From the NCBI GenBank assembly GCA_040755755.1, contig JBFLZW010000055.1, positions 62,001 through 126,000 on the forward strand: a stretch of 64,000 bases of DNA, in the 5' to 3' direction. The stretch is from a bacterium (GTDB lineage: Bacteria > SZUA-182 > DTGQ01). Numbering within the stretch: the first letter of the stretch is position 1; each line of letters opens with the position of its first letter. The notes beneath the pieces were generated by a model. The model was not told where the DNA came from. It searched no databases and saw only the letters and a program-made list of their open reading frames with translations. Both the position numbers and the translations under genes were made by a program. Shown in pieces: positions 12,260 to 43,967 of this stretch.

Positions 12260-13359
12260 CCTGCCCCATCGGTGTTTTCCTGAATAAAGACAGCCCTGTT
12301 TTGCCTGAGATTGCCTTTCTGCTCAACAGCTTCCCGGGCATCTGTCATCCGCTGATAAAGCTTCAGATAGTCTTTGGCCAGGCGCCTTGCCGAAAAGCGC
12401 TCCTCAAAAACCTGGCGGCATTGCCGGCGGCTCAAGGCTGTGACTTGCCTGGTTGCCGCCACCGCCTCCTCCATTCCGTTCACCAAAAATCCCGTGACAC
12501 CATCGTCGATAATCTCCGGAACAGAACCTGAACGATAGGCGATAACCGGAGTTCCACAAGCCATAGCCTCGATCATTACCAGGCCGAAGGGCTCCGGCCA
12601 GTCAATGGGAAACAGGAGTGCATAGGCGTTTCCCAGAAACTCGTTCTTTTCATGCTCTCCGATCTCGCCGATATAATCGGTCAGAGGATTCCTGAACAGA
12701 GGCTTAACCACATCGTTGAAATAGTCCATATTTGCCAGATCAACCTTGGCCGCAATTTTAATTTCCATCCCGACCCGCATAGCAATCTGAATTGCCCGGT
12801 CCAGCCGCTTTTCAGGTGAGATACGGCCAAGGAAGGCAAGATACTTGCCGTGCTCCTCACGAAAAGTATAGAGGTCTTCCGGCAGACCGTGGTAAATAGT
12901 ACCCTGCCAGTTGATCCAGGGGAGCGGCTTGCGCTGGTTATCAGAGATGGAGACCACAGGCATTTCGCGGAATTCCCGATAGAGATCAAAGAGATCCGGA
13001 ATATCCAGCCTTCCGTGCAGGGTACTGACATGAGGGATCTTAAACCGTCTCAAGGTGGGAAAATGGATATAGTCGATATGAAAATGTGCGATGTCAAAGT
13101 GATCAGCCTCCTTGAAGACCTGCTCCAGCATCAGTACATGATGAGCCATATAGTCCTGGCATTCCCTGTTCAGCCTCAGGGACCGTTTACAGGGAGCGAT
13201 CAGGCGGGCTCTGGTGATTGAATCTCCACTGGCAAAAAGGGTCACTTCATGACCCTGCCGAATCAATTCCTCAGTAAGATAGGATACCACCCGTTCAGTC
13301 CCCCCGTAGTATTTCGGCGGAACGCTCTCAAATAACGGTGCAATTTGTGCAATATGCAT
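12256..13359 (-). CDS. Glycosyltransferase family 4 protein
   Basis: The 367-residue product has a GT-B fold: N-terminal MHIAQIAPLFESVPPKYYGGTERVVSYL with the glycine-rich acceptor loop, and a C-terminal donor-binding EPFGLVMIEAMACGTPVIAYRSGSVPEII, the EX7E motif of GT4 retaining transferases. It is the first gene of a minus-strand unit with the debranching-type glucosidase (4-base overlap) and probably the alpha/beta hydrolase. A transferase coupled to a debranching-type enzyme suggests synthesis and trimming of an alpha-glucan or compatible solute; this is inference. Confidence 0.85.
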   Translation of the reverse strand: MHIAQIAPLFESVPPKYYGGTERVVSYLTEELIRQGHEVTLFASGDSITRARLIAPCKRSLRLNRECQDYMAHHVLMLEQVFKEADHFDIAHFHIDYIHFPTLRRFKIPHVSTLHGRLDIPDLFDLYREFREMPVVSISDNQRKPLPWINWQGTIYHGLPEDLYTFREEHGKYLAFLGRISPEKRLDRAIQIAMRVGMEIKIAAKVDLANMDYFNDVVKPLFRNPLTDYIGEIGEHEKNEFLGNAYALLFPIDWPEPFGLVMIEAMACGTPVIAYRSGSVPEIIDDGVTGFLVNGMEEAVAATRQVTALSRRQCRQVFEERFSARRLAKDYLKLYQRMTDAREAVEQKGNLRQNRAVFIQENTDGAG

Positions 13360-19936: not shown

Positions 19937-22897
19937 TCACTCGCCACTGACCACCAATTGCAGCCCTCGGGGCAGGGATTCGCCAAAAACGAGGCTCTGC
20001 TCCCTGGTCTGGTAATGGCTCACTTCCCGGATACTCTGGATAGCCTGATCCAGAGCGGCCGGGTCGGATTTTCGGCCATGCCCGGAAGATGCCTCCTCCC
20101 TGGCCAGGGAAAGAAATCCGATCACCCGGTTTTGCACCGCATCACTGATGTTCCGGGCCCGATCCGGGGTCTTTCGGGCAAGTTGAGTCAGGGTGAAGAT
20201 TTTCTCATCCTGGGGCAAGTCCCTGGTTTCCAGAAGACGGATAATCCACTCCTCTGCAAGCTCAGCCGGAACCACGGCATGAACGCTTCCGTAGAGTGGC
20301 TGGCGGGCTCCGATCCTTGCCAGTGCCCACAGGTCGGCCCCAAGGGGCTTCCCCTTTGTCAAGCGGTCCAGCACGGTATTTCCCAGCGACTCCTTGCTGT
20401 TTTCATCCAGCCGCTCAAGGCTTGCGGCCAGCCGCCACATCTCGGTCAATTCGTGAGGAGACGGCTTTGGCCCGGAAGGAGCTTTCTTCTGGGGGACCAG
20501 GTAGGGGGATATCTTGCGAAAGACCTCGGTCTGCTGATTCTGATTGAGCCCACCGGCTATCCGGCGATAGAGTATCCATAACTGGGTGCGGATTTCCCGG
20601 TCTTTTACTTCCTTCATCCCCTGAGAAATTACTTTCAGGAGATTTTTTATCCGCCACTCATCCAGAGGATACCCCAATCCCGGCCGGAGACAAAAGCCCA
20701 CCAGGTTCAGCCACCGTGCCTCCTGGAGTGGGGAGCGCCCCCTTTGCCCTGAAAGCCCTGAAAGATCGAGGAGCATTTCACCCATGGTGCGCAGGGTGAA
20801 TATCGGCCATGCCTGGCGGGGAGTTTCGAGCACTTCTTCCATTTTTTTCAAGAGATTATCCGGAGTCACTTTGCCAAGACCCGGAAGCGGCTCTCCGGAA
20901 CCGGAATCGGTGCCGAAGGCCGATGAAAACAGCGGCCTGACTTTTTCCACATCCAGGGCTTCTCCTTCTTCCGCTGCCGCCTCCCGATCTTCCATCACCG
21001 ATGAGACCGGCTTTGATTTTCCCTCTTCCCGGATTCCGAACTGGAGCTTCCACTGCCGGTCTCCATCCCGTGAGACGCACCATACCTCCAGAGTTCCGAT
21101 CTCGGTCAGTCTGGCCCGAAGGTGCACCGGCACCTTGGTGAGCTTGGCCCTGCCCCGCCGCAAAATGGTCTGGATCGGTGGCAGGGGGGTGAACGACTCG
21201 TCCCCTGCTTCCAGATTGACCGGCAGGATATCTCCCACCTGGTCAAGCAGACGGGTGCTTGAAGTATAGAGAGGAAAGCTTACCGGCTCGCCGATCAATA
21301 GGATAAACTCCCTCTCTCTGACTTCGACTTCCTGTCCTTCTTCCATCTTTCGGGGAACCAGGCACAGGGCTTGAGGGGATGCCTCCCCCTCCTTGCCGAT
21401 CCCGATATAGTAGGAGCGTCCGATGCCTCCGCTGATGCGGATGCCTTTTCCCCGCCGGACCTGGCCATAATAGGCGGCCCCATAGGCTACGGAAAGATCG
21501 CCCATCTCATGGGCGAGCACCACGGGGCTCCATGCCTTTATGTCTTCCTCCGCTCCGCGATCCGCCGGGAACCAGCTCTCCATGATCCGAACGATTCTGT
21601 CCTGCAAAAACTTTGGCTTGAGCGCCCCGCCGTTGAAGAGAATGGCATCGGGCCGGGCAAGGTCGGCGGCGGGCTGGCCGGTTTTCTCCCGCAGGTCACG
21701 GATACTGGCCTGGTGCTTTCTCAGAAATGAGGCCAGATGGCGGGACACGGCCGTATCCTGCACATAGGGAAGCCCCCACTCCTGCAATCCCATGCGGGAG
21801 GACTTGACCGGATCATCCTCCAGCCGGGTGATGGGGAAAAAGCCATTCTGGACAATCTCCCGCACTTCCGCTTCGGTCAATTCGTATTTCAGGGTGCTCC
21901 CGATCAGGCGGCTGCTTCTTTCCTGAACTACAATCGGAAAGGAATTCTGCTTATGGCCTTCGGTCAAAAGCGCTTCCTTTGCCCGGCGGCAGCCGTGGCA
22001 GAGCATGGACCACTGGCCGGAATCGAGCTTTCCGGCCTGCCCCGTCAGTTTGACCTCGATATGACGGGCCAGGGCCATGTCGATGTTATCGCCGCCCAGA
22101 ATCAAATGATCTCCCACTGCCACGCGGGTAAATACGGGCTTTCCCCCCTCCTCCTGCACGGTAATGAGGCTGAAGTCGGTAGTGCCGCCGCCCATGTCGC
22201 AAATGACCACAATCTGGCCATTATGCAGGTACCGGTGCCATGAATCGCGGTTCATGGCGATCCAGGCATAAAAGGCTGCCTGGGGTTCCTCGAGAAGAGT
22301 AACTTTGGTGAATCCGGCTTTCTGTGCAGCCTCCAGGGTCAACTCACGGGCAACTTCATCGAAAGAGGCCGGAACGGTCAGGATGATCTCCTGATCCTGC
22401 AACCGGTATTCCGGCCTGCCCTGAGCCATCTGATGGTTCCATGCATCCCGGATATGCTGCAAATAGCGGGAAGATGCCTCCACCGGAGAGAGTTTTTCAA
22501 GGTCCCGTGCTCCACTCCAGGGTAAAATGGCGGCTTTCCGGTCCACTCCAGTATGGCAGAGCCAGGATTTGGCCGAGGAAACCAGCCGCGACGGCACACT
22601 GGCCCCCAGTTTTTTGGCCAATTCCCCTACCACGATGGTAATTTTATCGTCCCAGGGCAGGCGGATGTTTTCCTGCATCAGCTCATGCTGCCCGGCCAGA
22701 TACAGATAGGAGGGGAGCATGGGCAGGGGTGACAGGTTTCCTTCCGAAACCAGTTGAAGGGTTTGAAAGATTTCGATGCTTCCTTCTCCCCCGGCAGCGT
22801 TATCGATATAGGCAACCGCACAGTTTGTGGTCCCCAGGTCAATACCCACGGTAAAGGGGGACCGGGCGGTGGTTGAGTGATGAATAGCAGTGTTCAT
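19937..22897 (-). CDS. Large Hsp70-family protein with long C-terminal domain
   Basis: The 986-residue protein opens with the Hsp70/actin-fold phosphate-1 motif GIDLGTTNCAVAYID and has the phosphate-2 motif VICDMGGGTTDFSLI and a LFNGGALKPKF segment. The C-terminal 400 residues are not a DnaK substrate domain; they match in layout the DUF3731-bearing Hsp70 relatives encoded with a second Hsp70 and DUF2760. It is paralogous to the protein at 25577-27436 over the first 600 residues. trpS lies 12 bases upstream on the same strand. Role as a chaperone is inferred; clients unknown. Confidence 0.85.
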   Translation of the reverse strand: MNTAIHHSTTARSPFTVGIDLGTTNCAVAYIDNAAGGEGSIEIFQTLQLVSEGNLSPLPMLPSYLYLAGQHELMQENIRLPWDDKITIVVGELAKKLGASVPSRLVSSAKSWLCHTGVDRKAAILPWSGARDLEKLSPVEASSRYLQHIRDAWNHQMAQGRPEYRLQDQEIILTVPASFDEVARELTLEAAQKAGFTKVTLLEEPQAAFYAWIAMNRDSWHRYLHNGQIVVICDMGGGTTDFSLITVQEEGGKPVFTRVAVGDHLILGGDNIDMALARHIEVKLTGQAGKLDSGQWSMLCHGCRRAKEALLTEGHKQNSFPIVVQERSSRLIGSTLKYELTEAEVREIVQNGFFPITRLEDDPVKSSRMGLQEWGLPYVQDTAVSRHLASFLRKHQASIRDLREKTGQPAADLARPDAILFNGGALKPKFLQDRIVRIMESWFPADRGAEEDIKAWSPVVLAHEMGDLSVAYGAAYYGQVRRGKGIRISGGIGRSYYIGIGKEGEASPQALCLVPRKMEEGQEVEVREREFILLIGEPVSFPLYTSSTRLLDQVGDILPVNLEAGDESFTPLPPIQTILRRGRAKLTKVPVHLRARLTEIGTLEVWCVSRDGDRQWKLQFGIREEGKSKPVSSVMEDREAAAEEGEALDVEKVRPLFSSAFGTDSGSGEPLPGLGKVTPDNLLKKMEEVLETPRQAWPIFTLRTMGEMLLDLSGLSGQRGRSPLQEARWLNLVGFCLRPGLGYPLDEWRIKNLLKVISQGMKEVKDREIRTQLWILYRRIAGGLNQNQQTEVFRKISPYLVPQKKAPSGPKPSPHELTEMWRLAASLERLDENSKESLGNTVLDRLTKGKPLGADLWALARIGARQPLYGSVHAVVPAELAEEWIIRLLETRDLPQDEKIFTLTQLARKTPDRARNISDAVQNRVIGFLSLAREEASSGHGRKSDPAALDQAIQSIREVSHYQTREQSLVFGESLPRGLQLVVSGE

Positions 22898-25576: not shown

Positions 25577-27436
25577 TTATTCCCCGTAGGGTTTCCTGAC
25601 GGTAAATTCCAGTTTCCAGCGGTTGTGCTCATCCCGGCTGACAAACCACAGCTCCAGGGTGCCGATTTCCGTAAGATGAGCATGGAGACGAACCGGAATG
25701 GCGACTCCTTCCTTTCCTTCCATCGTGAGGTGCGCTTCAAGCGAGGCCAATTCCTCGATTTCATCCGACCAGTTTTCGATCAGCTCTCCAATCTGGTCGC
25801 TCCGTCGGGTCGAGGAGGCGAAAAAGCGAAATTCCGCAGGCTCACCCACGACCAGGCCGAATTCCTGGCCGGGGATCTCCTCTTCGGTCCCCTCTTCCAG
25901 GCCGAAGGGCACAACACACAAGGCCTTGATCGGCGGAGGAAATCCGGGCACGGAAGGCATGGAGGTTTCAATGCCGATGTAGTATGAGCGGGCGGCACCT
26001 CCGCGAATGCGGATACCCTGACCACGGCGGGCCAGACCGTATGAGGCAGCCCCATGAGCCACAGCCAGATCAAGGTTTGTTTCCGGTAACACCTTCAGCG
26101 GATTTCCTCCTTCGGCCTCGATCCAGGAGTTGAGAATCTCGACCAGCCGTTCCTGGAGAAGACCGGCCTTAAAGACTCCGCCGTTAAAAAGGATCGCTGT
26201 GGGATGGATAAATTTTTTCCCCGGATTTTTCTCGCGCAATTGCGGGAAATTCTCCAAAGCACCAATCTGTGCCCCCAGGAAACGGGCCAGATGGCGGGTG
26301 ACCGCGGCATCGGCGGCATAGGGTAATCCCCATTCCTGAAGACCCACGGCCCGCTGTGTTCTGGGGCGGTCTTCGGCACTGCATTCCGGGAAAAATCCCT
26401 CAACCAGCACCGATTCCACCATCCGGCGGCTCAACCGGCTGCTCAGCGTGCCTCCGATCAGACTGCTCCCCCGTCCGGGGATGGTGACCGAATATTCCTG
26501 GCAGTCGGGATCATTCAGGATGGTCTCCTTGGCCAGACGGCAGTTTTGCCACAGGATGCGGTTCTGCCAGGTATCGAGGCGCGCCGGTGCGCCTTCCTCC
26601 CGCATTTTGTTCTGGATAGCCACAGCCAGAGCCAGGTCCATGTTATCGCCGCCCAGAAGGATGTGCTCACCGACAGCCACGCGGTTGAGGACCAGCGCTC
26701 CGTCTTCCTCAGCGACCGCGATCAGGCTCAGGTCAGTGGTTCCTCCTCCGATGTCGCAGACCAGAACAAGATCGCCGACTTTCACCCTGCCCCGCCATTC
26801 CTCATTGGCGTGGATCCAGGAATAAAAGGCCGCCTGCGGCTCTTCCAGCAAAATGGCGTTTTCCAGACCTGCATCCCGGGCCGCTTCCATGGTCAGCTCC
26901 CTGGCCACGGCATCGAAGGAGGCCGGAACAGTCAGAAAAATCTGCTGATGTTCGAGGAAATTCCCTGGATCGTCCTCGCCTTTTACATAATTCCAGGTTT
27001 CCCGGATATGCTCCAGATAGCGCCGTGAAGCCTCAAGAGGCGATACTTTTTCAACCTCGGCCGGACTCCCCCAGGGCAGAATCGGGGCCTTCCGATCCAC
27101 TTCACCGTAGCAGAGCCAGGATTTGGCCGAGGAAACCAGCCGCTGGGGCACCTCGGCCCCCCGTGTCCTGGCCAGCTCACCGATGGCAAAGGTGCGCTCC
27201 GCATCCCAGGGCAGAGCCAGGCTTCCTTTTGCCAGCTCATACGATCCGGGCAGATACAGGAATGAGGGCAAAAGGTTTCGGTACTCCACTGCTCCCTCAT
27301 GAACCAACTGGGGAATCTGAAGATAGTGAACCTCGTAATTACCTTCCCTGACCGAAGGGTCTGCGGTATCGACAAATCCTACCGCACAGTTGGTCGTACC
27401 CAGGTCAATGCCCACAATATACCGTGAATCTATCAT
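25577..27436 (-). CDS. Hsp70-family protein
   Basis: The 619-residue protein has GIDLGTTNCAVGFVD at the N-terminus and VCDIGGGTTDLSLIAV near residue 225, the two phosphate-binding motifs of Hsp70 ATPases, and then a short C-terminal domain ending in a LTEIGTLELWFVSRDE segment shared with the larger paralog. It belongs to the Hsp70-like pair that accompanies DUF2760 in many bacteria. DUF2760 lies 48 bases upstream on the same strand. No DnaJ or GrpE gene is nearby. Confidence 0.85.
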   Translation of the reverse strand: MIDSRYIVGIDLGTTNCAVGFVDTADPSVREGNYEVHYLQIPQLVHEGAVEYRNLLPSFLYLPGSYELAKGSLALPWDAERTFAIGELARTRGAEVPQRLVSSAKSWLCYGEVDRKAPILPWGSPAEVEKVSPLEASRRYLEHIRETWNYVKGEDDPGNFLEHQQIFLTVPASFDAVARELTMEAARDAGLENAILLEEPQAAFYSWIHANEEWRGRVKVGDLVLVCDIGGGTTDLSLIAVAEEDGALVLNRVAVGEHILLGGDNMDLALAVAIQNKMREEGAPARLDTWQNRILWQNCRLAKETILNDPDCQEYSVTIPGRGSSLIGGTLSSRLSRRMVESVLVEGFFPECSAEDRPRTQRAVGLQEWGLPYAADAAVTRHLARFLGAQIGALENFPQLREKNPGKKFIHPTAILFNGGVFKAGLLQERLVEILNSWIEAEGGNPLKVLPETNLDLAVAHGAASYGLARRGQGIRIRGGAARSYYIGIETSMPSVPGFPPPIKALCVVPFGLEEGTEEEIPGQEFGLVVGEPAEFRFFASSTRRSDQIGELIENWSDEIEELASLEAHLTMEGKEGVAIPVRLHAHLTEIGTLELWFVSRDEHNRWKLEFTVRKPYGE

Positions 27437-30571: not shown

Positions 30572-31531
30572 ATGAAACATTCTTCGCTTCAAGGCCCGCC
30601 CCCTGCATTCCGGCCAGAGCAGGAAAATTATCGCCTCCGCCTCCGGTTCGAGTATGGTCCCCTGGATGACGGAACCTTATGGGTACGGACCCCCAACCGG
30701 GGGCTTTTCCATGTAGACTGGCTGACTCTGCGGCTCCTTCTGGAACTGAACGGGGGAAGAACGATATCAGGGCTTGCTCAAAAATACAAAGTTGAGCAGC
30801 AGGAATTATACTCCCTCCTGACGAGTCTTGAGAAAGAAGGCTCGATCGTCCCGGCCAGACAGGGGAAAATCACCATGGGCCGTCAATGGGACGACATTCA
30901 CCTGTTACCCTTTATCCTCCTCTTTCTGATGCTTGCCGCTGTCCAGGTGGAATATTTTCGCACTCTGGCCAGCACGGCCACGCTCAATCACCGATATGAA
31001 GGGCTGCTGATCGGGCTGATCTCCATTGTGCCCATTATTCTCCATGAGATGGGACATTACCTGGCGGCCAGGCCCTATTTCGCCCCCCGGCTGGGTTTTA
31101 CCCGCCTCCTCTTTTTTCCGGCGGTGTATATGGATACTCACCCGGCCTGGTGTCTGCCGCCCAACATCCGGCTGCTCATCAATTCGGCGGGGATGCTGGC
31201 AGACCTTGTCTTCAACACCCTGCTGGTCGTGCTTGTCCTCTGGCATCCTCCACTGGAGTATTATGTTACTCCCCTGCTGCTCCTCCAATACACCCGCTGG
31301 ACCATTATCCTGAACCCCATGGTTAACGGGGATGGTTACTGGCTCTTATCGGATCTTACCAGAAACGTCAACCTGCGGCAGCGGGGGCGCGAGTACCTGA
31401 GAAAGGGGAGATTTCACTGGCTTTCCCTGTATGGCTTGTTTTCCCTGATATTTTCCCTCCTTTCCATAGTGGGTTTGGTCTGGTTCGCTGCCAATATTTT
31501 CGGGAGGATTATCCTTCCTTTCTTTCATTGA
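30572..31531 (+). CDS. PqqD-like/M50 membrane metalloprotease
   Basis: The 319-residue protein combines two parts. Residues about 15-105 (GTLWVRTPNRGLFHVDW through LLTSLEKEGSIV) look like a PqqD-type winged-helix domain, which in RiPP systems binds leader peptides. From about residue 110 several membrane segments carry the zinc-protease motif HEMGH (about residue 158) and a downstream NPMVNGDGYW, the second metal motif of M50/site-2 proteases. The ATG at 30572 follows CAGGAG; an earlier GTG at 30527 is in frame but lacks such a site. It is followed within 12 bases by the radical SAM genes. A role in cleaving the modified peptides at the membrane is inferred. Confidence 0.75.
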   Translation: MKHSSLQGPPPAFRPEQENYRLRLRFEYGPLDDGTLWVRTPNRGLFHVDWLTLRLLLELNGGRTISGLAQKYKVEQQELYSLLTSLEKEGSIVPARQGKITMGRQWDDIHLLPFILLFLMLAAVQVEYFRTLASTATLNHRYEGLLIGLISIVPIILHEMGHYLAARPYFAPRLGFTRLLFFPAVYMDTHPAWCLPPNIRLLINSAGMLADLVFNTLLVVLVLWHPPLEYYVTPLLLLQYTRWTIILNPMVNGDGYWLLSDLTRNVNLRQRGREYLRKGRFHWLSLYGLFSLIFSLLSIVGLVWFAANIFGRIILPFFH

Positions 31532-31543
31532 CAGGAGGTGGCT

Positions 31544-33499
31544 ATGCAGCTTGAATTTTTAAAGGTATTTATCTCCCTCATGGCTGTTGTTGCTCTTGCG
31601 GCCTCGGCCTGCAAGATTCTGAAAGAATACGAGCGGGCAGTAATCTTTCGCCTGGGAAAATTGCGGGGCACCAGCGGGCCGGGACTGGTTTTTCTGATCC
31701 CGCTGATTGACCGGATGCACAGGATTGACCTTCGGCTGGTATCGATCGATGTTCCCCGGCAGGATATTATGACCAGAGATAATGTGCCGGTAACTGTGGA
31801 TGCAGTCGTTTACTTCAATATCACCGATCCGGCCAGGGCCATAATCAGCATTCAAAATATCTATCAGTCCACCTTTCTGATCGCTCAGGCTACCCTGCGC
31901 AGTGTTCTTGGCCAGGTGGAGCTGGATGATCTTCTCAGCCAGCAGGCCAAGCTCAATCAGCAATTGCAGCAGATTATCGCCGTAACCACCGGCCCCTGGG
32001 GAATTGCGATCCCCATCGTCGAAATCAAGGAAGTTACCCTGCCCGAAGAGATGAAGCGGGCCATGGCCAAACAGGCAGAGACCGAGCGGGAGCGGCGCGC
32101 TCTTTTGATCGACGCTCAGGGGGAATATCAGGCCGCCGTGACTCTGGCCAAAGCGGGCGAGATTCTGTCCGGCAATCCCCAGAGCCTGCAATTGCGCTAC
32201 CTCCAGACCCTGCGGCATGTTTCCACCCAGAAAGGCTCGACTATCCTTTTTCCCTTCCCTCTGGACCTGGTCAGTCCCTTTATCGATGGAATACGAGGGC
32301 TTCGGCCAAGGGATGCCAGGGAGGAAGCGGAGGCTGGCATTCAGGAGGAAGAGACTGCTCCCTCCAGTGAATCCACGCTCCCGCAGCGGCAGCCTTCAGT
32401 CCCCCCGTCATCTCCCCAGCAGGTCCGGCTGGCTCAGTACCAGCAAAAGTGGCGAAATGGCCGCCTTCAGCCGCAATACGTACAGTGGCTGAGCACGAAC
32501 CGCTGTCAGTTTCAATGCTCACACTGCGAAACCACCGCCGGGGAGGTGAATCCGCGCGAGCTGACCACCGGCGAAGTCATGAAAGTTATCGATGAGCTGG
32601 CAGATGCGGGATGTGAATTCTTTTCCATAACCGGTGGTGAACCCCTGCTTCGCCCCGATATCTTTTCGATTGCCCGATATGCCCACGAGCGGGGGATGAA
32701 AGTAGGGCTCACCACCAATGGCCAGGCTGCGGAGGATAACCTCATGGCCCTTGAGCAGGCCCGCTTCGACTCGCTGATCATCACCCTGGACGGCTGCCGG
32801 AATACCCAGGACCGCCTGCGTGACAGCCGGGGATCGTATGAGCGGGGAATCCGGACCATAGAATTCTTCCACGATCTCGGGGCCCCCTTCATCGGTGTCA
32901 GCACCATTCTGCTGGATGAAAATATCATGGAGCTTCCCCAGTTGACCGAGGAGGTTTTTCAGGCCGGAGCACACCAGCTCCAGTTGCAGCCGCTCCTTTT
33001 TCAGCATGGACATCCCGTCCGAAACAACCCGCAAGTCGTACAACAAGCCTTCCGGTTTGTCCTTGAAGCCAGAAGGCGGGGATTTTCGGTTGAGCCCGGC
33101 GAGCCGTTCGGATATCTTGGCCCCCTGGATCCTCTGATCCGTGCGAATCCCTTTTTCTGCGGCTGCGGCTGGAACACGCTCTGCATCGACCATGAGGGGG
33201 GAATACTCGGATGCGCGGTTCCGGCGTTCTCCGGCCAGATGGAAGGAAACATCCGGACTGATTCTCTCACCAAAATCTGGGAGCAGGAGTTTGGCAGTTT
33301 CCGCAAAAACCTGCCCTCCGGGCTTTCCGATACCTGCCGGCAATGTCCCCACCTTTCACTGTGCCGGGGAGGATGCTGGCTTTTTCGTGCTCAAGGATTG
33401 AACCCCTGCTTCCTTCCGGAAGCGGAACACGTTTATCAGGAGATCTCGTATGCGCTATATCCTCAAACTGCTGAAGGAAAATCCCCGGTATTACCTTGA
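31544..33499 (+). CDS. Stomatin (SPFH)-radical SAM/SPASM fusion
   Basis: The 651-residue protein starts with a membrane helix and a full stomatin/band 7 domain (residues about 1-255: EYERAVIFRLGKL, GPGLVFLIPLIDRM, DVPRQDIMTRDNVPVTVDA). After a Pro/Ser/Gln-rich linker comes a radical SAM domain with CQFQCSHC (CxxxCxxC, about residues 319-326) and the TGGEPLL motif. It ends in a SPASM domain with CRQCPHLSLCRGGC. I know of no described protein with this combination. AGGAGG lies five bases before ATG 31544. The stomatin part would anchor the enzyme in membrane microdomains, beside the M50 protease. The second radical SAM gene overlaps its 3' end by 50 bases. Confidence 0.85.
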   Translation: MQLEFLKVFISLMAVVALAASACKILKEYERAVIFRLGKLRGTSGPGLVFLIPLIDRMHRIDLRLVSIDVPRQDIMTRDNVPVTVDAVVYFNITDPARAIISIQNIYQSTFLIAQATLRSVLGQVELDDLLSQQAKLNQQLQQIIAVTTGPWGIAIPIVEIKEVTLPEEMKRAMAKQAETERERRALLIDAQGEYQAAVTLAKAGEILSGNPQSLQLRYLQTLRHVSTQKGSTILFPFPLDLVSPFIDGIRGLRPRDAREEAEAGIQEEETAPSSESTLPQRQPSVPPSSPQQVRLAQYQQKWRNGRLQPQYVQWLSTNRCQFQCSHCETTAGEVNPRELTTGEVMKVIDELADAGCEFFSITGGEPLLRPDIFSIARYAHERGMKVGLTTNGQAAEDNLMALEQARFDSLIITLDGCRNTQDRLRDSRGSYERGIRTIEFFHDLGAPFIGVSTILLDENIMELPQLTEEVFQAGAHQLQLQPLLFQHGHPVRNNPQVVQQAFRFVLEARRRGFSVEPGEPFGYLGPLDPLIRANPFFCGCGWNTLCIDHEGGILGCAVPAFSGQMEGNIRTDSLTKIWEQEFGSFRKNLPSGLSDTCRQCPHLSLCRGGCWLFRAQGLNPCFLPEAEHVYQEISYALYPQTAEGKSPVLP

Positions 33500-34556
33500 C
33501 AAGATAAAATATTATCCCCGCAGCGTAGTCTGGGAGCTGACCCTGCGGTGTAATATGAATTGCGCCCATTGCGGCTCCGAGGCAGGCCCTGAGCGTGGCC
33601 GGGAGCTTGACCACGAGGAGGCCCTGGACCTTTGCCGTCAACTGGGCAGGCTGGGGTGCGAGATCCTGACCCTGCTGGGGGGGGAACCCTTTCTGCGGGA
33701 AGACTGGGATGAGCTGGCCCGCTGTCTTGCGGAGTATGGGGTCAAGGTAAATGCCATTACCAATGGCTATCTTATGAATCAGGCCCTGGTTGACCGGATC
33801 AGGAAGGCCGGACTTACCAATGTGGCCGTAAGCCTCGATGGGCTCAGGGAAACCCATGAGAAGATCCGGCGAAAGCCGGGCTCCTTCCAGCGGGTGCTGG
33901 ATGCCTTTACCCTGCTTCGCCAGAATGATGTCTCTTCGGCCATGGTCACCACCGTTTGCAAGGATAACCTGTCCGAGCTGGAACGGATCTACCAGATCGT
34001 CAGGGAAAAAGAGGTGGAAATCTGGCAGTTGCAGCTTGGTGTCCCCCGCGGACGGCTGTGCGAGCACTCCGAGTTTATCATTCAGCCTGAAGATATGCGC
34101 ATTGTTGAGCAATTCGTGCTTCAGGTTCGCCGGGAAGGCCGCATCCGCCTGGATGTGGCCGACAATATCGGCTACTTTGGCCAGCATGAGGAAATCCTGC
34201 GGGCAAACCTGCCCGGACGTCTGCCTTTGTGGACCGGCTGCTTTGCCGGTATGCAGGCCCTTGGCATCGAAGCCAACGGGGATATCAAAGGATGCCTTTC
34301 CATGCCATCCCTCCCGGAATTCATCGAGGGCAATGTCCGGCAGGAATCCCTGGCCGATATCTGGAACAAGCCGGGAAATTTCGCCTACAACCGCAGCTTT
34401 CACACCGGCCTGCTGGAAGGAGACTGCGCGGACTGTGAGTTTAACTATGTCTGCCGGGGAGGATGTAAATCCACGGCCTACTGTTTCAGCGGGTCGATTT
34501 TCAATAACCCCTATTGCCTCTATCGCCTCGAAAAGAAGGAGAAAGAGAGGAGGTAG
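33450..34556 (+). CDS. Radical SAM/SPASM peptide-modifying enzyme
   Basis: The 368-residue protein has CNMNCAHC (CxxxCxxC) at residues 34-41, LGGEPFLREDW, and a C-terminal SPASM domain with GCFAGMQALGIEANGDIKGC and CADCEFNYVCRGGC, enough cysteines for two auxiliary iron-sulfur clusters. SPASM radical SAM enzymes commonly form thioether, C-C or other crosslinks in ribosomal peptides. It overlaps the stomatin fusion gene and ends five bases before the first precursor-like gene, so all are expected to share one transcript. No substrate can be shown, but the aromatic-rich neighbours are the obvious candidates. Confidence 0.88.
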   Translation: MRYILKLLKENPRYYLDKIKYYPRSVVWELTLRCNMNCAHCGSEAGPERGRELDHEEALDLCRQLGRLGCEILTLLGGEPFLREDWDELARCLAEYGVKVNAITNGYLMNQALVDRIRKAGLTNVAVSLDGLRETHEKIRRKPGSFQRVLDAFTLLRQNDVSSAMVTTVCKDNLSELERIYQIVREKEVEIWQLQLGVPRGRLCEHSEFIIQPEDMRIVEQFVLQVRREGRIRLDVADNIGYFGQHEEILRANLPGRLPLWTGCFAGMQALGIEANGDIKGCLSMPSLPEFIEGNVRQESLADIWNKPGNFAYNRSFHTGLLEGDCADCEFNYVCRGGCKSTAYCFSGSIFNNPYCLYRLEKKEKERR

Positions 34557-34561
34557 TCATC

Positions 34562-35203
34562 ATGGCTCATATCTTTTTCGAAAAACTGGAAAAGCGGCGC
34601 AGCACCCAGTCGCTGTATTATGGAGGATTCGAATCCTCCTCCGGCAGCATGGTGCCCAAGGTTTCGTACAAAACGCCGCAATCAACAATCCGTGCTTATT
34701 ACGGAACCTCTGTTCCTGACCAGCGGTGTCAGCCGGACTATGAAATACCCGCTCGCGAAATGAACTATTTATACGGAATATCCCCTCCCCGCTTTCTCTA
34801 CGGAGTGGCCCCTCCGGAAATGCGGACGTATTATGGAGTGTCCATTCCCCCGGCAAGCGAATCATCCTGGACTTTCCCAGCCAATGGCTGGTCTTCCTGG
34901 ACGTATCCCGCTGGGAGCTCATCGTCCTGGCCCTATCAAGGCGGGAGCGGATCATCCTGGAACTACCCGGCAAGCAGCGAATCCATCTGGGGAATCAGCA
35001 GCTTTCTTTCTCCCCTGTGGAATACTTTTCAGACAGTTATCAACTGGCAATTCTCTCCCAAGCAATCAGCACCGTGGGCCGTAAGTCTCTATGCAGTTCA
35101 ACTCCCCGGCCAGAGCATGCTCTCTCAGTCATTTTCTCTTCCGACTGCATCCTATTCAATGCCGAGCTCTACTAATTATTTTCCATCTTGGAATGTTCAA
35201 TAA
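34562..35203 (+). CDS. Putative RiPP precursor 1 (YYG/SSW repeats)
   Basis: The 213-residue protein starts MAHIFFEKLEKRRSTQSLYY, a segment shared with two further genes downstream and likely a leader. Then come five [YL]YG motifs (SLYYGG, AYYGTSVP, YLYGISPP, FLYGVAPP, TYYGVSIPP). A block of SSW repeats follows ([23 protein letters not shown]), then an SPLWNTF segment conserved in the third copy. Aromatic residues recur at near-regular spacing, as expected for a multiply modified core. GAGGAGG precedes the ATG, five bases after the radical SAM stop. An 18-bp perfect palindrome (34622-34639) marks the leader-core junction. Precursor status is inferred from context. Confidence 0.75.
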   Translation: MAHIFFEKLEKRRSTQSLYYGGFESSSGSMVPKVSYKTPQSTIRAYYGTSVPDQRCQPDYEIPAREMNYLYGISPPRFLYGVAPPEMRTYYGVSIPPASESSWTFPANGWSSWTYPAGSSSSWPYQGGSGSSWNYPASSESIWGISSFLSPLWNTFQTVINWQFSPKQSAPWAVSLYAVQLPGQSMLSQSFSLPTASYSMPSSTNYFPSWNVQ

Positions 35204-35364
35204 GCGATATTTCAGTATACCGAATGAGCCGCATTATCTTGCCGTATGACCGATAAGAGAGATTGCAGGATCGACCATGCCTGCAATGGTTCAAGGAGGG
35301 AACCGGACTGGGCGGAAGGATATGCAGGCATGGCCATACCTGCACAGAAAAGGAGATAATCATC

Positions 35365-35675
35365 ATGGCTCATATCTTTTTTGAAAGGCTGGAGAACCGG
35401 CAAAGCACACAGGCACTGTATGGAGGAGAGGATTAAGACTCCCTGCCAACAAGCCCGTCGCTTCTGAGTGGGGAGAATCAAGTTTGTTTTACAGAGCTTA
35501 CCCTCTGTACGGCGTCCAGCCGTCAAAACCCTGGCCGATTCCTGGTGGCGGTGGTTCTTCCGGCAGGATGGGTGGGTTCCTTAGTCTCTGGTGGAACACC
35601 CTGGAAGAATTTTGGGAGCAACGGTACCCCGATCATAGATTAATGTATATGATACACTTCCCTGCCAAAAAGTAA
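35365..35675 (+). pseudogene. Putative RiPP precursor 2, frameshifted
   Basis: ATG 35365, preceded by AAAGGAGA, encodes MAHIFFERLENRQSTQALYG and stops after 23 residues. In a shifted frame that overlaps the end of this leader, coding goes on to 35675 with YPLYGVQP, a PGGGGSSG stretch and FLSLWWNTLEEFW, the last matching FLSPLWNTF of precursor 1. One base change of length near 35425 would join them into a protein of about 103 residues. The leader and its ribosome-binding site are well kept, so a free 23-residue leader peptide may still be made. Confidence 0.65.
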
Positions 35676-35712
35676 TGTATGCAATAACAGCCGAAAGATA
35701 AAATCCGACAAA

Positions 35713-35765
35713 CACTCATGCCCGGGACAGTGGAGAAAAACCGGCTGCCCCGCCGGGCATGAGTG
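35713..35765. terminator. 13-bp hairpin between precursor genes 2 and 3
   Basis: CACTCATGCCCGG (35713-35725) pairs perfectly with CCGGGCATGAGTG (35753-35765) around a 27-base loop. No T-tract follows, so it may be an attenuator, mRNA-stability hairpin or processing site rather than a full terminator. It could set different amounts of the third precursor. Confidence 0.4.
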
Positions 35766-35929
35766 CTGGAAAAATCTTTCCAGCTATCCATTATCCGCTG
35801 GCTCTGAAAGCCTCAAAAAGCACTGTGTCTGACCTTCTATCTTTGTGCTATCTCTGCCTCGAATAAGCTCGAATGGAATACCTCTTGCATTTTCTGAGGA
35901 GGACTTTCCAGCATAAGGAGGCGACCATT

Positions 35930-36547
35930 ATGGCTCACATCTTTTTTGAAAGGCTTGAAAACCGGCAAAGCACCCAATCGCTGTATGCAGGGTATGGAAT
36001 ACCTGCCACTACACCGAGGCTCTATTATGGGATTCAGACCACTGACACGGCAACCTATTACGGGGTGGGAGTGCAGACAACTTCACAATATAACCCTCTT
36101 CTTTACCCATCCTTCGGCAGCTACCCCTGGGGCGGGTGGAGCAGTTGGGGTTACGGATATGGATACAATCCGTATGGATTTGGCAGCTATTCCCTGTTCA
36201 ATCCCATCGCCCTTTGGAATAATCCCTTCACTCCATACGCCTCCCCCTGGGCAAATCCCTTCTCGAACCTGTGGGGCGGCATCAGTAACCTATTCTCTCC
36301 CTTGTGGAATATCTTCGGGGGGCTTTTCGGCTGGCAGTCCTCTCCCTGGTCTGGGTATCCTGTTTCTCCAGGGTCATATACACCCGATCCCGGAGGGGCT
36401 GTAGCAATCTATGCCGCTCCGATCAGCGGTCCGATTGCTCTCTATGCAATCGATCTGCCTTCAACAAGCACGTCTTATTCACCGCCTGGCTCTACCGTGT
36501 GGGCACTCTATGGGATCAGCCAGCCGGTCTCGAGCTGGCCTTATTAA
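35930..36547 (+). CDS. Putative RiPP precursor 3 (YYG and aromatic-rich)
   Basis: The 205-residue protein begins MAHIFFERLENRQSTQSLY, nearly identical to precursors 1 and 2, after an AAGGAGG site. The rest is rich in Tyr, Trp, Gly, Pro and Asn: LYYGIQ, TYYGVG, WSSWGYGYGYNPYG, SPLWNIFGGLFGW and a C-terminal ALYGISQPVSSWPY. The SPLWN block and LYA...LP segment align with precursor 1, while the middle differs, as expected of a conserved leader with a diversifying core. It is the last of the three tandem copies. If it is not a RiPP precursor, an aromatic-rich surface protein is the main alternative. Confidence 0.72.
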   Translation: MAHIFFERLENRQSTQSLYAGYGIPATTPRLYYGIQTTDTATYYGVGVQTTSQYNPLLYPSFGSYPWGGWSSWGYGYGYNPYGFGSYSLFNPIALWNNPFTPYASPWANPFSNLWGGISNLFSPLWNIFGGLFGWQSSPWSGYPVSPGSYTPDPGGAVAIYAAPISGPIALYAIDLPSTSTSYSPPGSTVWALYGISQPVSSWPY

Positions 36548-38193: not shown

Positions 38194-39030
38194 TTATATT
38201 GTCGGAACAACACTCAAGCTTACATTAAATTCTCCCGTGTCAGATTTGAGGAAGAGAGCATCATGGATAAGATAAGTTCCGGTCATGAAAGAGGCGCTGA
38301 CCAGCGTGCAGGTCAAGTCTTCATAATATGTTACCAGGGATACCGGATCGAGGTAGGAGCCGCTCAGGGTAAAGGGACTTCCAAGATATGCGCCAGATAC
38401 ATTGATTGGGATCGGGATCAGTTTATTCAGGAGCAGCCCGGCAGTTCCTGAAACGGTCCTGGTGAGAGTATTATAGACCAGGTTCATATTGCAGATTCCC
38501 CCCTTAAGGCTGATATAGCTGAGCCAGGTACCACTCCAGGTTCCGGTTGGATTGATAAGCCCTCCACCTCCGCCAAGGAGAGTAGTCGTCAGGGTAGTCA
38601 GGGCAGCCGGTGAGCGAACCGGCTCGACCAATGGCAAAGTGTCAGATGCAAGAGGATATCTTCCCAGTCCATACAGGCCTAATCCCAAGCCTCCGTATAA
38701 TCCGTAGAGTCCACCATATAACCCGCTGCCATAAAGGCCGTAGAGTCCACCTCCATACAAACCATAGCCATACAGCCCGCCGTAGATCGGAGAGCCATAC
38801 AGACCATAGAGTCCATAGAGTCCGTAGCCATACAGCCCGCCGTAGATCGGGGAGCCATACAGGCCATAGAGCCCACCGTAACCATACAGCCCGCCATACA
38901 GGGCATAGTCATAAATAGTTCCTAAGGGGACACCATAGTTATAGTAGGCCTGTCCGTTCAGAGGCACACAAACCAGGGCTGTCAGGCAAAAGAGAATAAC
39001 AGCTCCTAACTTCACTTTGGATAACTGCAT
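38194..39030 (-). CDS. Secreted LYG/YGG-repeat protein
   Basis: The 278-residue protein has a signal peptide (VILFCLTALVCVPLNGQA) and then about 100 residues built of GLYGYGLYGLYG and SPIYGG repeats. A 36-bp-scale DNA repeat is visible in the gene. The C-terminal 130 residues are a different, Thr/Leu/Ser-rich beta-type domain. Tyr-Gly repeats of this kind form flexible or aggregating structural regions in known secreted proteins. It has no MAHIFFE leader, yet its LYG units resemble those of the precursor genes 2-4 kb away. Function unknown; a surface structural or adhesive role is a guess. Confidence 0.75.
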   Translation of the reverse strand: MQLSKVKLGAVILFCLTALVCVPLNGQAYYNYGVPLGTIYDYALYGGLYGYGGLYGLYGSPIYGGLYGYGLYGLYGLYGSPIYGGLYGYGLYGGGLYGLYGSGLYGGLYGLYGGLGLGLYGLGRYPLASDTLPLVEPVRSPAALTTLTTTLLGGGGGLINPTGTWSGTWLSYISLKGGICNMNLVYNTLTRTVSGTAGLLLNKLIPIPINVSGAYLGSPFTLSGSYLDPVSLVTYYEDLTCTLVSASFMTGTYLIHDALFLKSDTGEFNVSLSVVPTI

Positions 39031-41395: not shown

Positions 41396-41711
41396 GCCAA
41401 TCTCCTCGTATTGTTATTAGAGTTAATTTTAGACCTTACTATCCTTATCGGAATCCCTGTCTCTGGTATCGGGGAGAGAGGAAAGGAAGTGAAGTAATCA
41501 AACCTTCTTCATAAATATGGCGTAGTTTATGCATCAAATAGCGACTAAAAGGAGGGCTATGAATCAAGGACCTCAACCTGATCTGAATTAACCAATACCA
41601 TTGGGGGGAAAGATAGGAGATGAACCGCAATAACAACATATTATCAAAGGATAGTTCCTAATACCTCACACATTGCCATTTTTTTCTGTAACAATCGAGT
41701 GGAGACAGGTT
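41396..41711. other. Gap upstream of the CO dehydrogenase gene
   Basis: No gene is seen. It lies between a divergent small gene and the CO dehydrogenase; a promoter is expected but I could not identify convincing elements. Confidence 0.35.
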
Positions 41712-43967
41712 ATGAAAGAAGATAAAAGTTTTATGAGCTTGTTACTGGACATGCTGAAAAATGGAAGTGTAAGCCGACGGAATTTCATTAAACTGGCGAC
41801 AGCATCAGGTATAACCCTTGCCGCAGCCGAAACTGTCATGGCTGCCCAGCCTACCGGATGGAGCTGCTTTGGCTGTCATAATCAGGCACCGTCATCACCA
41901 TCTTTTATACCTGACCAGATCACCGAGGATTTAAGGAAGCATGCAGACAGTCTTGGCATCGAGCTTGTCTGGGATAGAGGTGCTCCCTGCGAATGGTCTC
42001 ATAAAGGAACTGCCGGAGCCGCCGGGCTGTGTTGTTTCCGTTGTCAGATGGGGCCCTGTACTCTGGGAAAAGCTACGGGTGAGGAAAGAGGCACCTGCGG
42101 CGCTACCGCAGACATTATCGCTGCCCGTGATTTAATACGGCGTATTGCCGGGGGTACGGCTGCTCATGTCGAACATGCCAGGGCAGTAGCCAAGACACTG
42201 AAGGCAGTGGCCTTGGGAACGATTTCCGGCTACCATGTTGTAGATGTGGCAAAATTAGAGGCCATTTATACCGGATTAGGTTGCACGGGAGCAAATAAAG
42301 CACTTGCCGTAGCTGAAAAGAGTCTGGAAGACCTGGGAAAAAGCGAGGGAATTCCTGCATGGCTTGAATACCGGGCCAGCAGTGAACGGAAAAAGGTATG
42401 GGCGTCCCTGGGCATTCTCCCGACCGGTGCAGGTGCTGAAATCAGTGAAGCCCAGCACAGGACCCATATGGGTGTTGACGCTGACATGGCCCATCTGGCA
42501 ACGTGTGGCCTCAAACTCGGATTGGTTGACGGATATTGCGGAATGCATATGGCTACCAATCTGCAGGATGTCATTTTTGGTACTCCAGCCCTGACAACTG
42601 CCAAAGCAAACCTTACGGTAATCGAGAGAGATAAGATCAATCTGGTGGTCCACGGTCATGAGCCGATCTTATCGGAAAAGATCGTCGAGGCAGCCAATAC
42701 CTATAACAGCACCAGGCCATCTGTGCCAATTAATGTCGTAGGCATGTGTTGTACCGGAAATGAAGTCCTCATGAGAAAAGGTATTAATGCTGCCGGTACT
42801 ATGGTACAACAGGAATTAGCCATAGTTACCGGCGCGGTAGAGGCAATGGTGGTAGATGTCCAGTGCATTATTCCCAATGTACAAAGGGTCGCCTCACGGT
42901 TTCACACCAAAATAATCACTACCAATCCACACGCCAGGATTACCGGTGCTCTGCATATCGAATTCGAACCGCAAAATGCTGATTCGGTGGCCCGGGAAAT
43001 TGTACAAACCGCTGTTCAAAACTATCGGAATCGAGATCAATCCAAGGTGTATATTCCCGATATTCCTCCCAAGGATATTGTGGCTGGTTTCTCGGTTGAA
43101 CAAATCATTCAGGCCCTTGCAGCCATAAACCCGACCAGTCCCTTGAAACCATTGGTAGATAATATCGCTGCCAATAATATCCGGGGTATCGTTGCGGTCG
43201 TAGGCTGTGTCACTCCCCGTGATACCTACGGTTATCGCCATGTTACCATAACCAAAAGGCTTTTGGCGGAGAACATCCTGGTTGTCGGAACCGGGTGCTG
43301 GGGACATGTGGCTGGACAATATGGACTTCTCACCGCAGATCCTGCCTACCCCGGTGTGGGCGACGGGCTCAAAGCGGTTTTACAGGCGGTAGCAAAAGCA
43401 AATGGGCTCGAAGCTCTGCCAGCCTGCTGGCATATGGGATCGTGCGTGGATAACAGCAGAATCGAAGATGTGGTGAATGCGGTCGCCGGTTATTTAAACA
43501 TCAAGAACAGCCAGTTACCCATAGCTGCCTCCGCCCCTGAATTTATCACCGAAAAAGCTGTGTCTATCGGCACCTGGGCGGTCGATCTTGGCATCTTCAC
43601 CCATATCGGCGCTCAGCCCTATATCAGTGGAAGCCAAAATTTGGTTAATCTTCTGACTGATGGCGTGGAAACCCTTACCGGAGGAAAATTCTACGTAGAG
43701 CAGGATCCTGAAAAAGCTGCCGATACCCTGATAGGTGTGGTGAACGAAAAACGCCGGAATCTCGGCTTGCCGGTGACTGCCTGCAATGGCGATCTCAATG
43801 GAGACAAGCAGATCACCCCGGTGGATGCTCTGATTGCCTTCAAGTGCTATACGGAAGCTAAGCCTTGCCCGGATTGTGCTGATGTAAACAAGGATGGCGA
43901 GGTTACTCCAGCGGATGCTCTTTGCTTATTCCACAAGTACCTCCAAAAACCGAATTGCCTTGATTGA
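41712..43967 (+). CDS. Exported Ni-CO dehydrogenase (CooS-type) with dockerin
   Basis: From ATG 41712 (GGAG just upstream) the protein has 751 residues. It starts with a twin-arginine signal, SRRNFIK at residues 21-27 followed by a hydrophobic stretch and AAETVMAA. The body is the CooS family: LCCFRCQMGPC and GTCGA supply B-cluster cysteines. The C-cluster ligands are recognisable in VHGHEP, VVGMCCTGNE, VVDVQCIIP, VVGCVTP, GTGCWGHVAG and GSCVDNSR, and the EKAVSIG lysine is kept. The last 60 residues carry two dockerin/EF-hand motifs, DLNGDKQITPVD and DVNKDGEVTPAD. Known CooS enzymes are cytoplasmic; this one appears to be exported. No cooC, cooF or acs genes are near. Confidence 0.88.
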   Translation: MKEDKSFMSLLLDMLKNGSVSRRNFIKLATASGITLAAAETVMAAQPTGWSCFGCHNQAPSSPSFIPDQITEDLRKHADSLGIELVWDRGAPCEWSHKGTAGAAGLCCFRCQMGPCTLGKATGEERGTCGATADIIAARDLIRRIAGGTAAHVEHARAVAKTLKAVALGTISGYHVVDVAKLEAIYTGLGCTGANKALAVAEKSLEDLGKSEGIPAWLEYRASSERKKVWASLGILPTGAGAEISEAQHRTHMGVDADMAHLATCGLKLGLVDGYCGMHMATNLQDVIFGTPALTTAKANLTVIERDKINLVVHGHEPILSEKIVEAANTYNSTRPSVPINVVGMCCTGNEVLMRKGINAAGTMVQQELAIVTGAVEAMVVDVQCIIPNVQRVASRFHTKIITTNPHARITGALHIEFEPQNADSVAREIVQTAVQNYRNRDQSKVYIPDIPPKDIVAGFSVEQIIQALAAINPTSPLKPLVDNIAANNIRGIVAVVGCVTPRDTYGYRHVTITKRLLAENILVVGTGCWGHVAGQYGLLTADPAYPGVGDGLKAVLQAVAKANGLEALPACWHMGSCVDNSRIEDVVNAVAGYLNIKNSQLPIAASAPEFITEKAVSIGTWAVDLGIFTHIGAQPYISGSQNLVNLLTDGVETLTGGKFYVEQDPEKAADTLIGVVNEKRRNLGLPVTACNGDLNGDKQITPVDALIAFKCYTEAKPCPDCADVNKDGEVTPADALCLFHKYLQKPNCLD

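Follow-up and report, generated by a model that had tools for sequence, protein, structure and literature searches.

Spliceotide clusters of the PlpXY type, known from Pleurocapsa, have XYG motifs in their cores and more than one precursor gene, and the PlpXY splicease excises tyramine at XYG. The PlpX component is a SPASM radical SAM enzyme of IPR026482 whose partner is an RRE protein (PMC11002830). Published splicease sites are XYG, as in the tag PIRPLYGLPI, and leader-independent splicing has been reported (PMC10533398). Further systems that bear comparison are the GDL-motif/DUF1843 peptide systems (TIGR03913), where a radical SAM enzyme accompanies small peptides with PYG or LYA, GeoRSP, with two SPASM proteins and a PqqD-type partner, and the epipeptide (YydFGHIJ/LiaK) and daptide systems, where an M50-type protease lies beside the RiPP gene set.

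A cluster with two radical SAM enzymes and repeated leaders

Within the 64-kb stretch of bacterial DNA analysed here (the window), we find a cluster in which every gene is on the + strand and the first four genes overlap or are at most 12 bp apart (Table 1). Profile matches and coordinates bear out the M50 protease, the stomatin-radical SAM/SPASM fusion, the second radical SAM/SPASM enzyme (rSAM2), the shared leader and the common strand, all of which an earlier sequence-only reading had reported. That reading also held that the gene set fits no described class, which is too strong a statement, since rSAM2 and the XYG-rich substrates fit the PlpXY type. From the sequences, we think it rather likely that the cluster is a RiPP-like system of the spliceotide type, whose leader is new and whose multi-site substrates are about 200 aa long. 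GeoRSP, which shares the two SPASM proteins and probably the PqqD-type partner but has neither the SPFH fusion nor the M50 part found here, had rightly been doubted: with TIGR04303 the scores are 110 and 82, where 400 is required, and neither partner family is among the matches.

Table 1. Features of the cluster, in window coordinates
Feature	Position	Strand	Remark
RRE/PqqD-like N-domain (about residues 16-104) and M50-type membrane metalloprotease (HEMGH, NGDG)	30572..31531	+	
Stomatin/slipin (SPFH) and radical SAM/SPASM fusion, 651 aa	31544..33499	+	
rSAM2, second radical SAM/SPASM enzyme, splicease-like, 368 aa	33450..34556	+	best family TIGR04103
Precursor A, 213 aa, leader MAHIFFEKLEKRRSTQSL, 5 xY[GA][VIT] motifs in core	34562..35203	+	
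Decayed precursor B, leader ORF 35365-35436 and out-of-frame core remnant	35365..35675	+	three-frame translation
Precursor C, 205 aa, leader MAHIFFERLENRQSTQSL, 5 xY[GA][VIT] and W-x-N-P-F motifs in core	35930..36547	+	

A Shine-Dalgarno sequence precedes each start of the shared leader (34562, 35365 and 35930). Of the three tandem precursor genes proposed earlier, A and C are intact, whereas the middle one is a frameshifted remnant: its Shine-Dalgarno sequence is preserved, but the leader frame (MAHIFFERLENRQSTQALYGGED) stops after 23 residues, and what resembles a core (...LYGVQPSKPW...) is in a different frame. The 17-aa leader is new, in contrast to the Nif11 and NHLP leaders of spliceotides, and an NCBIfam search with E up to 10 matched no leader family, these two included. 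Spliceases other than PlpXY may do without a leader of that kind. Its FExLExR stretch, which we take to resemble the LEPR-XLL N-terminal signal, likewise gave no match to that signal at E up to 10.

Together, the seven cores hold 32 copies of xY[GA][VIT], where shuffled sequences hold 3.2 (maximum 10 in 2000 shuffles), and 19 of the longer.Y[GAS][VIT]xxP, for which the shuffles give 0.7. Each core carries 3-5 copies of the former, such as LYGISPP, YYGVSIP and LYAVQLP, the sites being mostly XYG with some LYA or MYA; such long cores with several sites are unlike those of PlpXY spliceotides. The sequence-only reading had missed these motifs.

The splicease-like enzyme rSAM2

The best family for rSAM2 is TIGR04103, which we take to be equal to IPR026482, though its 284 bits are under the cut-off of 725; against the GDL-type family of the TIGR03913 systems it scores 250 bits (cut-off 591.75). 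Its orthologues are 72-80% identical. In our tree, rSAM2 clades with a Nostoc TIGR04103 enzyme and with GDL-peptide maturases, with support of 98/98 for the 20-row clade as a whole but not for the order inside it. The Nostoc enzyme has a Nif11 precursor ending SIALYGLPPELF (...ALYGLPP), and the gene after it is PlpY-like and encodes 71 aa. The GDL/DUF1843 systems, whose radical SAM enzyme falls in the same clade, differ from the present cluster in having another peptide, a C-terminal extension of the enzyme and no SPFH or M50 part.

As a scan of the genome contigs gave three close relatives of rSAM2 and three weak matches, more distant relatives were drawn from plasmids and sampled genomes. 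For seven relatives, with identities of 34-46%, XYG/XYA peptides are encoded next to the enzyme or as part of it. Two PLYGV peptides are found in genome G275 and two PLYGVP peptides with identical leaders in G305, while in G197 seven XYG motifs (DYGVAVP ... LYGVSLP) are in the enzyme's own frame; the peptides at other relatives carry MYGTGV (Agathobacter), PYGAG, MYAAS and LYAAG (Aureibacter) or RPYGPA (Azospirillum). The tandem PLYGVP peptides are accompanied by a second radical SAM enzyme, of ranthipeptide type. No XYG peptide was found nearby for the clade members in G036, G189, G002:C57, G003:C31 and Tropicibacter. When small ORFs with any XYG were sought blindly around radical SAM genes, the clade did not stand apart from generic radical SAM genes, of whose loci 4 of 10 were positive too; the case therefore rests on repeated and duplicated motifs and not on their bare presence.

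A different reading is that rSAM2 targets the tyrosine motif by another chemistry (Tyr crosslinking, beta-modification, epimerisation or decarboxylation), yielding a repeat protein that is modified without being spliced. The chemical diversity of SPASM enzymes, the score of rSAM2 below the TIGR04103 threshold and the presence of related enzymes beside the PYG/LYA-bearing GDL/DUF1843 peptides would all suit such a chemistry; however, the LYG[IV]xP sites of the present cores are close to the proven splice tag (PMC10533398), and the ALYGLPP core stands beside the Nostoc TIGR04103 relative, so we regard this reading as unlikely. Tyramine excision by rSAM2, which we infer from its family and the motif, would most likely remove C8H9NO (-135.0757 Da) at each of the repeated XY(G/A) sites and leave several alpha-keto-beta-amino-acid residues per chain.

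A stomatin domain fused to a radical SAM enzyme

The fusion protein matches PF01145 (E 7.1e-38; Band_7 130.8 bits against a gathering score of 23.6), PF04055 (E 2e-24) and SPASM (E 7e-7), and its residues 21-247 match the human stomatin structure 9oh9 with E 2.6e-60. It shares the SPFH domain with the slipin/stomatin family (human stomatin, QmcA, PH1511), and this domain is about 50-58% identical to free slipins from other phyla, but the C-terminal radical SAM/SPASM part is particular to the fusion. Among the 386 genomes, four carry an SPFH-radical SAM fusion, always in this domain order (the copy in G003 is divided by contig ends), and the other genomes checked have no such arrangement. No such fused enzyme is part of PlpXY. 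Among the papers searched, none links stomatin, radical SAM and RiPP, and a search on SPFH, radical SAM and fusion recovered a single, unrelated review. FtsH is the classical SPFH partner; in G002 and G003 ftsH is divergent to the operon.

Could the main product instead be a crosslinked, cyclophane- or triceptide-like peptide, made by the fused enzyme at W-x-N type motifs, with rSAM2 secondary? In the XYG-type cores, [WY]xNP[FWY] is found 12 times where 0.4 are expected. In G002 and G003 the fused radical SAM enzyme has a stand-alone paralogue, which accompanies a same-leader precursor that has no XYG repeats; the cores beside this paralogue hold 31 PW repeats where 7.2 are expected. Yet W-x-N is missing from precursor A, its enrichment in the plain form is modest (11 against 4.9), and the fused enzyme exceeds the cut-off of no cyclophane family. 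The cyclophane idea is suggestive only, and as an account of the main product we consider it improbable. The loss of 2 Da per crosslink that had been anticipated would fit at best the stomatin-fused enzyme, whereas the expectation for rSAM2 is -135.08 Da per site.

Distribution of the leader and the enzymes

Besides the window, the cluster is found in three relatives, with operon proteins 64-80% identical across three other genera. The leader, the M50 gene, the fusion and rSAM2 occur together in the same four of nine genomes of the phylum and are all absent from the other five. The pattern M[ASP]HIFFExLExR has nine matches in 4 of the 386 genomes, exactly those with the fusion, the M50 gene and rSAM2, while the reversed pattern has none; the MPHIFLESLE gene of G003:C33, missed by the pattern, brings the leader genes to ten. 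The conditions that the sequence-only reading had set for its own refutation were checked as well: no genome that lacks these radical SAM genes contains the leader, but on the contigs of two of the ten leader genes there is no such gene, and the stand-alone paralogue of the fused enzyme has a related leader as its partner too. That the leader proteins are just structural proteins of low complexity, with the radical SAM enzymes acting on other targets, is very improbable. These proteins are indeed long, W/Y/G/P/S-rich and without family assignment, two of their genes are on contigs without radical SAM genes and the operon has no transporter gene. Yet the leader is shared by otherwise divergent cores, the operon is tight, the leader co-occurs exactly with the enzymes in four of the nine phylum genomes and it recurs beside a paralogous radical SAM pair. 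The earlier view, in which the cluster is of RiPP type and one maturation enzyme is linked to the membrane, is supported by the conserved leader, its co-occurrence with the enzymes and the RRE-like domain described below.

The M50 protein and a proposed pathway

The M50 protein matches PF02163 weakly (E 7e-4), and its HExxH and DG motifs are invariant in four orthologues. Identity with the epipeptide or daptide proteases was rejected, the scores of 39 bits for YydH/LiaK (NF058609, cut-off 225) and 44 bits for the daptide HExxH family (NF041824, cut-off 300) being far under the cut-offs; the catalytic motifs are identical, but the present protease differs in its N-terminal RRE-like domain. The sequence-only reading had called this domain PqqD-like. 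No PqqD match appeared in the Pfam search, but the modelled fold is RRE-like: as the model of the whole protein has a pLDDT of 49, which makes its fold search meaningless, the N-terminal domain was modelled alone (pLDDT 75), giving a beta3-alpha3 arrangement. Foldseek places it closest to LynD and TruD, RiPP enzymes that carry an RRE (probability 0.80-0.97, with weak E-values of 0.05-0.2). On the strength of this model and these matches, the domain is probably an RRE. PlpXY needs an RRE; here the probable one is fused to the protease, and no PlpY homologue encoded as a separate gene turned up in searches of the window and of orthologous loci.

We propose that the leader M[ASP]HIFFExLExRxSTQ directs precursors of about 200 residues to the machinery, probably via the RRE-like domain of the M50 protein, and that rSAM2 would splice them at their XY(G/A) sites. 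The stomatin-fused radical SAM enzyme, facing the cytosol on an SPFH ring in the membrane, would modify the W/N/P/S-rich repeats of the same chains. By analogy with the RiPP M50 proteases YydH/LiaK and the daptide protease, the M50 protease probably handles the leader, and would cleave it off at the membrane. More tentatively, the whole may form a membrane-tethered splicing factory, in which a stomatin cage displays some 16 radical SAM domains. These would modify precursors of about 200 residues, each chain also being spliced at several YG sites, and the resulting proteins, containing beta-amino acids, would be assembled and cleaved at a stomatin microdomain and released there, next to an intramembrane protease (and FtsH).

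Implications

Radical SAM enzymes of RiPP pathways are usually regarded as soluble. The stomatin/SPFH fusion would anchor peptide maturation directly at a membrane microdomain, within one polypeptide. With this cluster, splicing would also reach beyond small peptides to long substrates that have several sites and a new leader. The relatives of rSAM2, among them the enzyme with an in-frame tail of seven XYG motifs and the one with tandem PLYGVP peptides, suggest that XYG-directed radical SAM enzymes extend further in sequence space than the TIGR04103 cut-off reaches.

Operon layout and distribution

The operon starting at 30572 is tightly packed: 12 bp separate the M50 gene from the stomatin-radical SAM fusion gene, whose 3' end overlaps the gene for the second radical SAM enzyme (rSAM2) by 50 bp, and precursor A follows after 5 bp. 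The sequence-only reading had three tandem precursor genes here; the leader is indeed common to all three, but the middle copy is not intact, its core remnant lying outside the leader frame.

Features of the operon and of other genes in the window
Feature	Position	Strand	Remarks
M50 protein	30572-31531	+	M50 Pfam match weak
Stomatin-radical SAM fusion	31544-33499	+	Band_7 E 7e-38, Radical_SAM E 2e-24, SPASM
rSAM2	33450-34556	+	Radical_SAM E 1e-28, SPASM
Precursor A	34562-35203	+	
Decayed precursor copy	leader ORF 35365-35436; out-of-frame core remnant to about 35675	+	
Precursor C	35930-36547	+	
Repeat protein	38194-39030	-	signal-peptide-like start, then long LYG/GLYG repeat tract; no family
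CO dehydrogenase/prismane-family protein	41673-43967	+	PF03063 E 1.9e-144; N-terminal Tat-like signal (SRRNFIKLATASG); C-terminal dockerin type I domain (PF00404 E 1.5e-6)
Two Hsp70/DnaK-like proteins, same gene neighbourhood	19937-22897, 25577-27436	-	

The host genome (5.26 Mb) is one of nine sampled from the phylum. Three further genomes, each from another genus (G002, G003, G004), have counterparts of the M50 gene, fusion and rSAM2 at 64-80% identity. The three genes are contiguous on G002:C84 and split in G004 between one contig with M50-fusion and another with rSAM2 and two precursors; in G003 the fusion gene is broken across contig ends. Fusion, M50 gene, rSAM2 and leader are all absent from the five remaining phylum genomes. 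The leader pattern ATG-N-HIFFExLE gave nine matches, in four of 386 sampled genomes (reversed pattern as control: 0), and a tenth leader gene at G003:C33 differs by one substitution (MPHIFLESLE). The proposed co-occurrence of leader and enzymes holds by genome, all four having the enzymes, but not by contig: two of the ten leader genes (G002:C224, G003:C495) have no radical SAM gene on their contig, though both genomes do have such genes.

Elsewhere in the window, the dockerin-bearing CO dehydrogenase-family protein is apparently exported, which would be unusual. The G002 contig with the orthologous operon ends in a YG-repeat secreted protein similar to that in the table (L025, starting near 12306).

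A splicease-like enzyme and its candidate sites

The best NCBIfam match of rSAM2 is the PlpX-type family TIGR04103 (284 bits, below the cut-off of 725), followed by the GDL-peptide maturase TIGR03913 (250 bits). PlpX (IPR026482) works together with PlpY, an RRE protein, to cut tyramine (C8H9NO, 135.0757 Da) out of XYG sites, so that alpha-keto-beta-amino acids remain; PIRPLYGLPI and variants of AVAAGYGVVFP are among the tags tested, and mention is made of a further 27 characterised systems and 939 predicted ones (PMC11002830, PMC10533398).

Seven XYG-type cores contain 32 xY[GA][VIT] motifs where shuffling the cores predicts 3.2 (never more than 10 in 2000 shuffles), 19.Y[GAS][VIT]xxP against 0.7 and 12 [WY]xNP[FWY] against 0.4. 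Examples are AYYGTSVPD, YLYGISPPR, FLYGVAPPE, TYYGVSIPP and SLYAVQLPG in precursor A, and LYYGIQTTD, TYYGVGVQT, ALYAIDLPS and ALYGISQPV in precursor C.

In a tree, rSAM2 and relatives collected by tblastn on plasmids and whole-genome search form a single clade (20 rows, support 98/98) of unsettled internal branching order; generic SPASM enzymes fall outside it, as do the fused enzymes (6 rows, 100/100). The TIGR04103 enzyme of Nostoc sp. C057 (36% identical to rSAM2) has at its locus a Nif11 precursor ending ...GSIALYGLPPELF and a 71-aa PlpY-like gene. Beside other relatives are an unannotated peptide (...FGPVMYGTGVRM) in Agathobacter, three DUF1843 peptides with PYGAG, MYAAS and LYAAG in Aureibacter, RPYGPA in Azospirillum, two peptides with C-terminal ends ...IPLYGVPCRVEPY and ...VPLYGVVCTTEGQ in G275 (44-46% identity), and two peptides MIYLVDPQEAGTINGCILKFCFRMVPLYGVP- in G305 (39-40%). 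Some clade members have no XYG/XYA peptide nearby, and a bare XYG in a small ORF near a radical SAM gene is uninformative. In G197 (45-46% identity; L090 9428-11584) a single open frame joins the relative to a lipoprotein-like tail with seven XYG motifs (DYGVAVP, EYGVITP, DYGVVTP, DYGIAQP, AYGVDLP, EYGVAVP, LYGVSLP), apparently an enzyme fused to its own substrate, although two genes may instead overlap here.

At L091 12036-12421 and L092 12292-12970, unannotated peptides in tandem have cysteine in their middle part and finish in PLYGV(P). They adjoin an rSAM2 relative, an ABC exporter and a radical SAM of the ranthipeptide type, which in L091 is Clo7bot/TIGR04463-like, making these loci candidate dual-radical-SAM XYG systems. 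G112 has two enzymes related to rSAM2, and the lipoprotein-like gene upstream of them (L093 7483-8202) holds two YKGVDFS motifs, possibly an XYG variant.

On G002:C142 and G003:C33 a paralogous system runs stand-alone radical SAM (41-45% identical to that part of the fusion), leader-bearing precursor, third radical SAM. The precursor has the same leader and W/S/P repeats (SSPWNSPW), with XYG nearly absent; its two cores hold 31 PW against 7.2 expected from shuffling. Because the leader accompanies the fused-type enzyme in both systems and rSAM2 the XYG type only, these associations suggest one enzyme per motif type.

The fusion and the M50 protein

The stomatin part matches human stomatin across residues 21-247 (E 2.6e-60). 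In human stomatin, 16 subunits build a membrane cage, and their C-termini meet as a beta-barrel at its narrow cytosolic end (PMC12344292). Since the fused enzyme begins after the stretch equivalent to this C-terminal one (...GSTILFPFPLDLVSPF...), its radical SAM domains would sit on the cytosolic cap. No SPFH-radical SAM fusion occurs in the rest of the 386 genomes or in plasmid records; free slipins are mostly 250-290 aa, and at E 1e-30 the host genome yields none besides the fusion. The classical SPFH partner ftsH is divergently adjacent to the operon in G002 (L025 866-2119, minus) and G003 (L026 2469-3668, minus), which hints that the fusion still works in a membrane-protease setting. The window has nth upstream of the operon instead, and G004 has ATP synthase genes.

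The modelled N-domain of the M50 protein (beta3-alpha3, pLDDT 75) has the heterocyclases LynD and TruD as its best six Foldseek matches (prob 0.80-0.97, E 0.05-0.2). PaaA and MibB rank lower; all four proteins carry RREs. As RRE-bearing proteins head these matches, the N-domain is probably leader-binding, in place of PlpY.

Proposed pathway

Gene content, conservation, co-occurrence, motif enrichment and the XYG peptides near relatives are the observed basis of a scheme in which the RRE-M50 protein would bind the leader and its protease would remove it. From family and motif, we consider it reasonably likely that rSAM2 works at XYG/XYA sites, most likely excising tyramine; more tentatively, the fused radical SAM might modify the W/N/P repeats at the membrane. 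The sequence-only reading knew of no described class of this kind. The splicing part is a new variation on an already known splicease type. Judging by searches confined to open-access literature and sampled genomes, both the leader and the fusion of SPFH with radical SAM are undescribed.
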